Below are positions 19,362-25,613 of a stretch of DNA of 64,000 bases, in pieces; the first letter of the stretch is position 1, and each line of letters begins with the position of its first letter. The translations under genes were made by a program, and so were the position numbers. This DNA comes from Crassaminicella profunda (lineage in GTDB: Bacteria; Bacillota; Clostridia; Peptostreptococcales; Thermotaleaceae), in assembly GCF_019884785.1 (NCBI RefSeq), contig NZ_CP082326.1:62001-126000 (forward strand), given 5' to 3'. Below the pieces are notes generated by a model that worked only from the letters and a program-made list of their open reading frames with translations, had not been told where the DNA came from and made no database searches.

Positions 19362-20618
19362 GTGGCTAAAATTGTTATAGAAAAAAGCCCTCCGTTAAAG
19401 GGTCGTGTGAGGGTGAATGGAGCAAAAAATTCAGTATTACCAATTCTTGCTGCATCCCTATTATCTCAAGGAAAATGTGTTTTAGAAGATATACCTGTAC
19501 TAAAAGACGTAGAAGTAATCAGTGAATTATTATCATCTATCGGTGCTCGTGTGAAAAGAAATGTAAATGAAGGCTGTGTTGAAGTGGATGGATCTAGTAT
19601 TCTTCATTATGAAGCGCCTTATGAATTGGTTCGAAAAATGCGAGCATCATTTTTAGTAATGGGTCCTCTTTTGGCAAGAATGGGAAAAGCTAGGATATCC
19701 CTTCCAGGTGGATGTGCTATAGGAACAAGGCCTATTGATTTGCATCTAAAAGGATTCCACGCATTAGGAGCAGAAATTAATGTAGGACATGGATATGTAG
19801 AAGCAAAAGCAGACAAGCTCAGAGGAAACAAAATATATTTAGACTTTCCAAGTGTAGGTGCTACTGAAAATATTATGATGGCAGCTACTATGGCAGAAGG
19901 GTTAACGGTTATAGAAAACGTAGCAGAAGAGCCAGAAATAGTGGATTTAGCGAACTTCTTAAATGGATTAGGTGCAAAAATTAAGGGAGCAGGAACAGAT
20001 ACTATAAAGATTGAAGGGGTAAAAGAATTAGGTGCAACAAGGCATATGATCATTCCTGATAGAATTGAGGCAGGAACCTTTATGGTTGCAGCAGCTATGA
20101 CTGGAGGAGATGTGCTGATTGAAAATGCCCTATCAGAGCATTTAAAGCCTACGATTGCTAAGTTAAGAGAATGCGGTGTAAAAATCGAAGAAAGTACAGA
20201 CAGTATTCGGGTTATGGCGAAAAATGGAGTAATCTCCACAGATATTAAAACTTTACCTTATCCTGGATTTCCTACGGATATGCAAGCACAATTTATGACC
20301 CTTTTGAGTGTTGCAAAGGGTACAAGTGTTGTGATAGAAACAGTATTTGAAAATAGATTTATGCATGTGGCAGAATTAAAAAGAATGGGTGCGAATATTA
20401 GAATTGAAGGAAGAAGTGCTGTAGTACAGGGTGTAGAAAGTTTACAAGGAACGCAAGTAAAAGCAACTGATTTAAGAGCAGGTGCTGCTTTAATCCTTGC
20501 TGGGATGGTAGCAGAAGGTAAAACAGAAATTGGTGATATTTATCATATAGATCGAGGCTATGTAAATATTGAAAAAAAATTACGTGCATTAGGAGCAAAA
20601 ATTAGAAGAGAAGAATAA
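19362..20618 (+). CDS. murA: UDP-N-acetylglucosamine 1-carboxyvinyltransferase
   Basis: A 418-residue cytosolic enzyme that adds enolpyruvate from PEP to UDP-GlcNAc, the first committed step of peptidoglycan synthesis. K22-N23 in NGAKNSVLP contact substrate. The catalytic cysteine is C118 in [13 protein letters not shown], so fosfomycin sensitivity would be expected. The start is GTG behind AAAGGAGG; an overlapping ATG at 19360 is out of frame. It precedes spoIID as in Bacillus. Confidence 0.96.
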
Positions 20619-20651
20619 AAAAAATGTGTCTTTTATAGGCACATTTTTTTT
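20619..20651 (+). terminator. Terminator behind murA
   Basis: ATGTGTC pairs with GGCACAT (one wobble) inside an A-run/T-run, directly behind the murA stop. The next ~180 bases contain a GTTCAGC/GCTGAAC hairpin at 20775-20791 and presumably the spoIID promoter, whose sigma-E boxes I could not assign with confidence. Confidence 0.85.
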
Positions 20652-20835
20652 GTTCTATTTTTCTTTTGCTTTGCATAGGCTATATAGATTATGTGACTGT
20701 AAAATTTTAATAAGATTTTTACTCTTAGTACAAGACGATTCAGGTGGGGTGGGATTCATATCTGAATTCTCCATGTTCAGCTTTGCTGAACCAATGCACT
20801 AAGCTTATGGTAAAAGATACAAAGGGGGAAATGGG

Positions 20836-23170: not shown

Positions 23171-24202
23171 ATGTTTGGATTAGGAATGGAAGTAGGTATT
23201 GACTTAGGTACGGCTAGTGTTTTGGTATTTATAAAAGGAAAGGGAATTGTCTTAAAAGAACCTTCCGTAGTAGCTATTGATAAAAATACCAATCATCTTT
23301 TAGCAGTTGGAGAAGAAGCAAGAAGAATGCTAGGAAGAACACCAGGAAACATTGTTGCTATAAGACCATTAAAGGACGGTGTGATTTCTGATTATGAAGT
23401 GACAGAAAGAATGCTTCGCTATTTTATACAAAAAACTTGTGGGAAAAGAAAATTTTTCAAGCCTAAAATTATTGTTTGTGTACCTAGTGGTGTAACAGAA
23501 GTAGAAAAAAGAGCAGCTATAGAAGCAACTAGTGAAGCTGGCGGTGGGACTACTTATTTGATAGAAGAACCTATTGCAGCAGCTATTGGAGCCGGACTTG
23601 ATATATCTAAACCAGATGGAAATATGGTTGTAGATATTGGGGGCGGAACAGCAGATGTGGCAGTAATTTCTCTAGGAGGGGTAGTTGCAAGTAGGTCTAT
23701 TAAATGTGCAGGAGATAGATTTGATCAATCCATTGTAAAATATATGAGGAAAAAACATAATCTTTTAATCGGAGAGAGAACAGCGGAAAACTTAAAAATG
23801 ACTATTGGATCAGCCTATCCAAGAACAAAGATCTTAACGGCTGAATGTAGAGGACGAGATTTGGTTTCAGGACTTCCAAGAACCATTAAAGTAACTTCTG
23901 AAGAAATGTTGTATGCCCTTGCAGAGCCAGTTATGGCTATTGCTGATGCTGTTCATGCAGTTCTTGAGAGAACACCACCAGAACTTGCTGCAGATATTAG
24001 TGACAGAGGGATCGTTATGACAGGTGGAGGATCTTTACTAGATGGACTCAATAAACTCATTGAAGAGAGAACTGGAATTCCTACTTATATTGCAGAAGAT
24101 CCTATTGAATGCGTGGCGAAGGGAACAGGAGCATCCCTTGAGTCTATTAGTGTTTTAGAAAAGAGTATGATGAGTAGTAAGGATTTTAGAAGATCTAGGT
24201 AA
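23171..24202 (+). CDS. mbl: MreB-family actin-like protein (Mbl)
   Basis: A 343-residue bacterial actin that guides side-wall peptidoglycan synthesis. The phosphate-1 loop GIDLGTASVLVF, phosphate-2 loop VVDIGGGTADVAVISLGG, adenosine motif TGGGSLLDGL and the membrane-binding N-terminus MFGLGMEVG are visible. The place between spoIIID and flhO is that of mbl in Bacillus, which decides between Mbl and MreB. Its stop lies six bases ahead of a large palindrome. Confidence 0.92.
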   Translation: MFGLGMEVGIDLGTASVLVFIKGKGIVLKEPSVVAIDKNTNHLLAVGEEARRMLGRTPGNIVAIRPLKDGVISDYEVTERMLRYFIQKTCGKRKFFKPKIIVCVPSGVTEVEKRAAIEATSEAGGGTTYLIEEPIAAAIGAGLDISKPDGNMVVDIGGGTADVAVISLGGVVASRSIKCAGDRFDQSIVKYMRKKHNLLIGERTAENLKMTIGSAYPRTKILTAECRGRDLVSGLPRTIKVTSEEMLYALAEPVMAIADAVHAVLERTPPELAADISDRGIVMTGGGSLLDGLNKLIEERTGIPTYIAEDPIECVAKGTGASLESISVLEKSMMSSKDFRRSR

Positions 24203-24208
24203 GGGGTG

Positions 24209-24314
24209 GTAAATATTTTTGAAAAGAACGTTCATAACAACAATAGATTAGAGAAAACGGTTTTCTTGGCTAATCTATTGTAAGTTATTCTCTTATCTTT
24301 TCAAAAATATTTAC
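24209..24314. repeat. 106-bp imperfect palindrome behind mbl
   Basis: The outer 19 bases (24209-24227, GTAAATATTTTTGAAAAGA) are a perfect inverted repeat of 24296-24314. Inside, CAATAGATTAG (24241-24251) pairs with CTAATCTATTG (24270-24280), and AGAAAAC with GTTTTCT at the tip; short unpaired stretches lie between. The size, shape and lack of coding sequence fit a MITE-like element or an oversized terminator. No second copy is apparent in the window. Confidence 0.8.
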
Positions 24315-24470: not shown

Positions 24471-24498
24471 TAAACATTTCAGCTAGATATGTCGATAT
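24471..24498 (+). promoter_or_regulatory. Sigma-D-like flagellar promoter of flhO-flhP
   Basis: TAAA at 24471-24474 and GTCGATAT at 24491-24498 are separated by 16 bases, close to the TAAA-N15-GCCGATAT consensus of flagellar sigma factors. The position, 41 bases before flhO, agrees. The AT-rich stretch 24315-24470 shows no gene. Confidence 0.65.
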
Positions 24499-24539: not shown

Positions 24540-25613
24540 ATGCTCAGGGGACTTTATACGGCAACGTCTGCTATGAAGACGAATAACAAAAAATTGGAGG
24601 TTATTACCAATAACATTGCAAATATTGATACAGTAGCATATAAAAAAGACTTAGTTGTTTCAGAGTCTTTTCCAGAGACTTTGATAAAAAAAATTAATGC
24701 ACCTATGGATTTTACAAATATGGAAGCTACTAGAAAAGTGACGGTAAACAAAGAAGATAACTTATATGAAGTAAATACTACCGGTGGATATTTTAAAGTA
24801 AAGACACCTAATGGAGAGAGTTATCATAAGGATTTAAAATTTACGGTGAATGAAGATGGATACCTGAGCACATATTATAAAGATCTTAATGGGGAGATTG
24901 ATACAAAATCAGGCTATTTACTTTTAGGGAACAAAGGACCCATCAAAATAGGAGATGGAGAACTGCAGATCAATGAGCGGGGACAAGTACTAGTAGGTGG
25001 AAATGTAGTAGATAATTTAGTTATGCCCGTATCCCCTAACACTATTGGAACCTTAAATGCTGGAGTAAGGCTGGATAGAGTTTATGTAAACCATGAACAA
25101 GGACAACTCTATGAGACGGACAATAATTTAGATGTAGGGATAAAAGGTAGAGGATTTTTCAAAGTTGAAACACCAGCAGGATTGCGTTATACAAGAGATG
25201 GAAGCTTTGCTTTGAACAAAGATCATGAACTTGTTACATTAGATGGATATAAGGTAGAAGGTTTTGATGGGCCTATTATTTTGGATGGATCAGATATATC
25301 CATTAATGAATTAGGAGAAATTATGGTAGACGGTGAATATATGGATACCATACAAGTGGTCGATATAGAAAACAGGAAGGACCTAAGGAAAGAAGCAAGC
25401 AATATGTATAGAATGGCAGAAGGTGTACAAGGGAAAGAAGCTGAATTTACAGGACAAGTTGTTCAAGGATTTTTAGAAAAATCAAATGTGAATGCTGTAA
25501 AAGAAATGGTGAAAATGATGAGCCTTTTTAGAAACTATGAATCAGGACAAAAAATCGTCAAAGCGTATGATGATACATTAGGAAAAGCTGTAAATGAGGT
25601 TGGAAAAGTATAG
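24540..25613 (+). CDS. flhO: Flagellar hook-basal body protein FlhO (FlgF/FlgG-like)
   Basis: A 357-residue rod protein. The N-terminal rod motif reads GLYTATSAMKTNNKKLEVITNN with NIANIDTVAYKKD. A middle D1-type segment carries GRGFFKVETPAG, and the C-terminal coiled coil holds GFLEKSNVNAVKEMVKMM. These terminal helices pack in the axial rod. It precedes flhP by 18 bases in the order known from Bacillus. Confidence 0.88.
   Translation: MLRGLYTATSAMKTNNKKLEVITNNIANIDTVAYKKDLVVSESFPETLIKKINAPMDFTNMEATRKVTVNKEDNLYEVNTTGGYFKVKTPNGESYHKDLKFTVNEDGYLSTYYKDLNGEIDTKSGYLLLGNKGPIKIGDGELQINERGQVLVGGNVVDNLVMPVSPNTIGTLNAGVRLDRVYVNHEQGQLYETDNNLDVGIKGRGFFKVETPAGLRYTRDGSFALNKDHELVTLDGYKVEGFDGPIILDGSDISINELGEIMVDGEYMDTIQVVDIENRKDLRKEASNMYRMAEGVQGKEAEFTGQVVQGFLEKSNVNAVKEMVKMMSLFRNYESGQKIVKAYDDTLGKAVNEVGKV

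Follow-up and report, generated by a model that had tools for sequence, protein, structure and literature searches.

Between the mbl and flhO genes of the window (the whole 64-kb stretch of DNA that was analysed) lies a 106-bp palindrome, at 24209-24314. Its outer arms of 19 nt and an inner pair of 12 nt are each 100% complementary, a third pair, AGAAAA/TTTTCT, closes the tip, and no open reading frame of 60 aa or longer crosses it in the ORF list. The palindrome begins six bases (24203-24208) past the mbl stop codon. An earlier note made from the sequence had described all of these features and erred only in the length of the inner pair, which it gave as 11 bases. The choice of mbl among the MreB-family paralogues is taken from that note. 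On the far side of the spacer, flhO is preceded by a predicted promoter, a box that resembles the sigma-D consensus. The features are as follows.

23171-24202, + strand: mbl, MreB family, host context; stop codon 24200-24202 (ORF list; MreB-family models above cut-off)
24209-24314, + strand: hairpin repeat, tip-less copy (arms, folding, match to model R2 described below)
24209-24227, + strand: left arm of outer stem, variable and compensating between copies (copy comparison, including the sibling in genome G003)
24228-24239, + strand: 5' side of the internal-loop motif, ACGTTCATAACA, family form GAACGTTCATnnCnACAA (alignments A1 and A2); partly and weakly paired in the window fold
24240-24251, + strand: left arm of inner stem (inverted-repeat match)
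24252-24269, + strand: short tip, where the G003 sibling has ~110 extra bases with a minus-strand TwoAYGGAY match (sibling comparison)
24270-24281, + strand: right arm of inner stem (inverted-repeat match)
24282-24295, + strand: 3' side of the internal-loop motif, AAGTTATTCTCTTA (alignments A1 and A2)
24296-24314, + strand: right arm of outer stem (inverted-repeat match)
24471-24497, + strand: sigma-D-like box, TAAA-N16-GTCGATA, context outside the element (pattern match)
24540-25613, + strand: flhO, FlgF family by model, downstream of the sigma-D-like box (family models)

The palindrome is real and far beyond chance. Folded with its flanks as RNA it has a z-score of -6.7, folded as ssDNA one of -11.3, and folded as minus-strand RNA one of -10.5, with none of 200 shuffles equalling it in any of the three. 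It is the sole perfect inverted repeat of at least 19 nt with a gap of at most 100 within the 64 kb, and 20 first-order Markov resamples of the window contained no inverted repeat of 15 nt or longer. Elsewhere in the window, at 20604-20664, a 28-nt inverted repeat of 82% complementarity resembles an ordinary intrinsic terminator.

A family of hairpin repeats in related genomes

The window genome is designated G000, and G001, G002 and so on are related genomes from a comparison set of 59, G002 and G003 being of the same genus as the window. The earlier note had proposed searching the genome for further copies of the terminal repeat; a DNA search of the window genome yielded no close second copy, returning the palindrome itself and short, possibly chance matches. 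The single-copy reading was dropped once homologues appeared in relatives: when the mbl-flhO region was compared with the 59 related genomes, the palindrome matched in G003 and G002, away from mbl. Model R1 together with inspection then places three other, diverged members in G000 itself (at 766445, 1679683 and 4137009) and members in G001, G002, G003, G006, G007, G009 and G020, and a pattern search with inspection adds members in G013 and G042.

A second model, R2, was built from nine copies from G002, G006, G009, G020 and G042, leaving out the window genome and the window copy's nearest subfamily, and it recognises 24209-24314 with a score of 75.9 bits (E 5.4e-13), against 25.6 bits for the second-best match in the window; it also recovers the G000 copies at 766445 and 1679683 and those of G001 and G007. 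Both models miss long-tip members, and absence by model alone is no proof. R2 misses the long-tip copies L039 and L191 and gives the G013 copy (L069) only E 0.23, while R1 has no match in G042 and does not find the G000 copy at 4137009, so that its count of genomes matched at E 1, 8 out of the 59, is a lower bound. Four matches were set aside: one at 2585060 in G000, which resembles an ordinary hairpin and has a score on each strand, and weak ones in the window at 20604 (R1; an ordinary hairpin by its sequence), 7632 and 12821 (both R2).

The closest sibling of the window copy lies between leuD and leuB (names from NCBIfam) in G003. In its two halves, which are split by ~110 extra tip bases, 43 of 51 and 50 of 57 aligned columns match, and three stem changes relative to the window copy are compensated, as judged by eye. 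Across the family the conserved unpaired motifs are GAACGTTCATnnC and AAGTnATTCTCTT, the stems being variable and compensating. In alignment A1, of 10 copies with the tips omitted where long, the invariant letters fall mostly near the two sides of the internal loop, GAACGTTC and ATTCTCTT, and the outer stem varies. In many family members TCATTC stands on each side of the loop. When the structure of the window copy is laid on A1, both sides have changed in 27 of 43 pairs, as against 16.4 in shuffles, and the covariation score is 0.291, as against 0.125, neither value being reached by any of 500 shuffles; slid structures give 10-16 double-changed pairs. The covariation supports pairing and does not by itself indicate an RNA role, because kinship among the copies inflates the scores and terminal repeats matched to a protein co-vary too. 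Indeed, co-evolution of terminal repeats, or palindrome repair, could equally produce the co-variation of the arms with no RNA role at all.

Broader searches say less. The core pattern AAAGAACGTTCATnnnnACAA with two mismatches is matched in 38 of the 59 genomes, about as often as by a backwards control in most of them, with only G020 (16 vs 1) and to a lesser degree G042 (8 vs 4) standing out; with three mismatches in the window genome the control gives 78 matches and the pattern 31. Pattern counts were not taken as evidence alone because the backwards control matches about as often. A named-genome scan returned 12 stretches, three in Petromonas, one in Marinisporobacter and eight in scattered phyla, these eight probably being chance. 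Similar DNA was not found in plasmid and phage collections when one repeat was compared with plasmids and another with both. Among the listed titles and abstract openings on TwoAYGGAY, MITEs, Correia and bcr1, we found neither a description of this hairpin family nor a link between TwoAYGGAY and mobile repeats; what marks the repeat as a variant among MITE-like hairpins is that its inner loops are conserved and that it has relatives headed by TwoAYGGAY.

In G003 (C24; L044, about 1410-1450) a 5' half-repeat, its 3' half absent, lies directly 3' of an apparent glmS ribozyme leader and before glmS, as judged by eye.

Copies, termini and empty sites

The family has been amplified in G002, which carries at least 40 near-full-length copies, 88-91% matched to the 4137009 copy of G000, and four fragments. 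Among 41 copies read in G002, 36 start with TATAG[GA], 40 end with YYTATA and 35 do both, and some lie end to end with CTATAG in common. Three orthologous sites are filled in some genomes and empty in others. The jag-mnmE site is filled in G000 (copy 4137009) and empty in G001, G002 and G003; the leuD-leuB site is filled in G001 and G003 and empty in G000 and G002; and the hydG-hydE site is filled in G001 and cleanly empty in G000, no copy being seen behind hydG in G002 and G003, although the next gene differs there. Because copies are dispersed and sites are filled in some genomes and empty in others, the hairpin family is counted as mobile.

As to target duplications, the G003 copy C21 has TATAG ends with TATA at its right end, and the corresponding sites without C21 in G000 and G001 read TATA before the same right flank, a comparison that fits a 2-base or a 4-base duplication alike. 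The suggestion in the earlier note that the palindrome could be a MITE turns out to be largely right. It holds for the family, which is short and non-coding with inverted-repeat ends (106 bp with 19-bp perfect arms in the window copy), has apparent TA/TATA targets in close relatives, is dispersed in many copies in G002 (the window genome holds diverged copies only), and occupies sites that are filled or empty at three places in four genomes. It does not carry over in full to the window copy, which is without TATAG ends and around which a target duplication could not be demonstrated; the search for a transposase, described next, was negative. In G002, a search for an autonomous element around 16 unpaired end sequences produced none that was convincing; the loose end matches, which bracket some genes, adjoin ordinary genes, and by Pfam none of 10 proteins beside them is a transposase.

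Two further kinds of short element accompany the copies in G002. At L264 (1316-1510) and L276 (1249-1449), beside hairpin-family copies, there is another short repeat, whose TATAGGGATCCAACTT ends are those of the family but whose interior differs; it was probably moved by the same enzyme. At L302 (about 2542-2590) and L304 (about 2609-2690) there are tiny derivatives of ~50-90 bp with little beyond two TATAG ends, which suggests stepwise loss of the interior.

The place behind mbl

The earlier note had offered as its second guess a giant terminator guarding the sigma-D promoter from mbl readthrough. In this account the hairpin is, or became, an mbl terminator or 3' stabiliser that insulates flhO and its promoter, the long hairpin and then TTTTTATTTT ending or protecting the mbl message. 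The position six bases past the stop codon and the T-rich stretch after the right arm would suit it. So would the other hairpins found in the first 110 nt after mbl in G001 (-32.3 kcal/mol), G003 (-24.3) and G009 (-23.5), which suggest that the place may need one; the folding covered these three spacers and those of G002 and G011, and G002 has no strong hairpin there (-4.7), which counts against the terminator account. The stem itself is AU-rich with large internal loops. A crude scan for an intrinsic terminator, that is, a GC-holding stem with an immediate T-run, finds none here, a weak negative because the spacers of G001 and G003 fold into strong hairpins and score none as well.

The note had reasoned that the same hairpin at this place in many species, with no other copy, would favour a terminator. 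Comparison of the mbl-flhO spacer across seven relatives gave a different picture, in that the hairpin was undetected behind mbl in all seven and its homologues lie elsewhere: R2 at E 1 has no match in their mbl regions, a two-motif scan behind mbl has none either, and R1 gives a single weak match, in G013 (E 0.024), with the qualification that long-tip copies could escape R1 and R2 here too. The sigma-D-like box occurs at 7 of the 8 loci examined (it is missing in G011), with or without the hairpin. Orientation at first seemed to favour a terminator, since all 10 placed copies of the genus set are in sense between co-directional frames (frames called mechanically). This bias was not borne out in G002, where 16 copies are in sense and 11 antisense (p 0.44), with 10 divergent and 4 convergent; in G009 there are four sense, one antisense and one convergent. 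With the origin placed by hand from the jag-mnmE position, the G002 copies divide 26 to 15 between the replication strands (p 0.12). The terminator guess is therefore weak: we regard it as unlikely that a terminator or stabiliser explains the hairpin, and a terminator role for the mbl copy is possible but secondary.

The boundary of the window element is uncertain because the 100-nt, element-free mbl spacer of G002 aligns with the window copy without a gap as far as base 11 of the left arm, and only then jumps. The 11-base match could be what a deletion left of an older copy, or else DNA of the target site that was absorbed into the stem.

Two other observations concern this spacer. G009 has another copy of the family just upstream of mbl (L015, minus strand, ~480-670), on the opposite side from the window copy, and the 730-nt mbl-flhO spacer of G001 and G003 (L010, L012) holds an apparent small antisense coding frame, by eye, that is not seen in the window spacer.

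The TwoAYGGAY tip and the nature of the family

Long relatives carry something that the window copy does not. Of 12 loci compared with Rfam, three (L101, L106 and L039) have a tip that matches the motif TwoAYGGAY (RF01731) on the minus strand above the Rfam cut-off, and L116 has a match that falls short of it. Long relatives with such a tip occur in G003, G042, G006, G001 and others; the leuD-leuB sibling in G003 is one of those that score above the cut-off on the opposite strand. The window copy has no Rfam match, and RF01731 has none at E 1 in the window genome. Among the 59 relatives it matches at E 1 in six, at 16 places, three genomes being over the cut-off, in a tally that misses G003 (whose tip scored above the cut-off elsewhere), since stricter filters lose matches. 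In a class-wide set it is present in 35 of 391 genomes at E 0.001, 26 of them over the cut-off and many with several copies, among the best candidates (at most seven per genome) that were scored; 14 control genomes had none.

What surrounds these matches is informative. Forty sites were assembled, 30 class-wide loci (one per genome) and 10 of the 16 from the 59 relatives, and L345 was dropped for its short flank. At 32 of the remaining 39 sites the flanks, taken as 80 bases to the left and 80 to the right of the Rfam match, pair with each other better than in any of 100 shuffles; at the seven others, L327, L329, L341, L344, L139, L140 and L147, this does not hold. TwoAYGGAY therefore usually heads a longer hairpin. 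TwoAYGGAY is listed without a function in one source (PMC2864571), and another proposes that its loops bind CsrA and points to a poorly conserved external stem in the Rfam model (PMC4333381).

It might be that the family consists of trans-acting ncRNAs, for example a CsrA sponge, multi-copy by happenstance, with the window copy as a degenerate gene. The TwoAYGGAY matches in the long tips and the proposed CsrA binding (PMC4333381) point that way; the window copy, with neither a TwoAYGGAY domain nor any Rfam match, does not, and the gain and loss of copies at orthologous sites from one species to another is what mobile repeats show, so that we find this account improbable, more so than a terminator. 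That the palindrome is an accident of an AT-rich spacer can be dismissed, given the ssDNA z-score, the resamples and the family homologues.

Much the best explanation, and one we hold with considerable confidence, is a small, MITE-like, non-autonomous mobile hairpin repeat of Clostridia, of which the palindrome is a diverged copy without the tip. We infer a transposase, supplied in trans, whose recognition sites are probably the termini of active copies, in the amplified subfamilies TATAG...CTATA, and which would insert copies at TA-rich intergenic sites. On whichever strand and in whichever molecule (RNA or ssDNA) the structure would matter, the conserved internal loop, and in long members the two-hairpin TwoAYGGAY tip, would be kept as the stem letters drift in compensating pairs. 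The mbl copy would by now be a passenger that is read along with the 3' end of mbl as a long hairpin, and any function there would be a presumed one. It is tempting to go further and speculate, tentatively and at rather less than even odds, that TwoAYGGAY heads mobile hairpins of a class widespread in Clostridia and is no free-standing cis-regulatory RNA. The tip and internal loop, rather than the termini, would then be the functional parts, for instance through a protein, of the host or for transposition, that binds them when a single strand is folded, and tip-less copies such as that at mbl would be deletion products.

A lone palindrome is thereby placed within a repeat family that can be traced, and the orphan motif TwoAYGGAY gains a physical and evolutionary setting, its sites being often multi-copy and usually on arms that extend past the Rfam model. 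This opens its function to tests, one candidate being a module for transposition or for protein binding, and there is a warning in this as well, namely that each TwoAYGGAY copy should not be read as a cis-regulator of the neighbouring gene.

The family is like the Correia/NEMIS, RUP and ERIC MITEs (PMC2229807) in being ~100-230 bp long, non-coding, AT-rich and intergenic, with TA termini in the amplified subfamilies, one long hairpin, and filled and empty sites, and its long and short versions differ by an internal block, as do the Correia elements of 155 and 107 bp. It differs from all of these in that its conserved core is in the internal loops and tip, not at the ends, its outer stems differ freely between copies, and its long versions have an Rfam RNA tip. 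The likeness is one of description, and no sequence relation is claimed. The bcr1 repeat of the Bacillus cereus group, a dispersed structured repeat of similar size, is likened to the family by description only. The resemblance to TwoAYGGAY (RF01731; PMC2864571, PMC4333381) is confined to the minus-strand tip of the long relatives, which the window copy is without. In contrast to Rfam's typing of RF01731 as cis-regulatory, the motif here sits on long arms, in several copies per genome.
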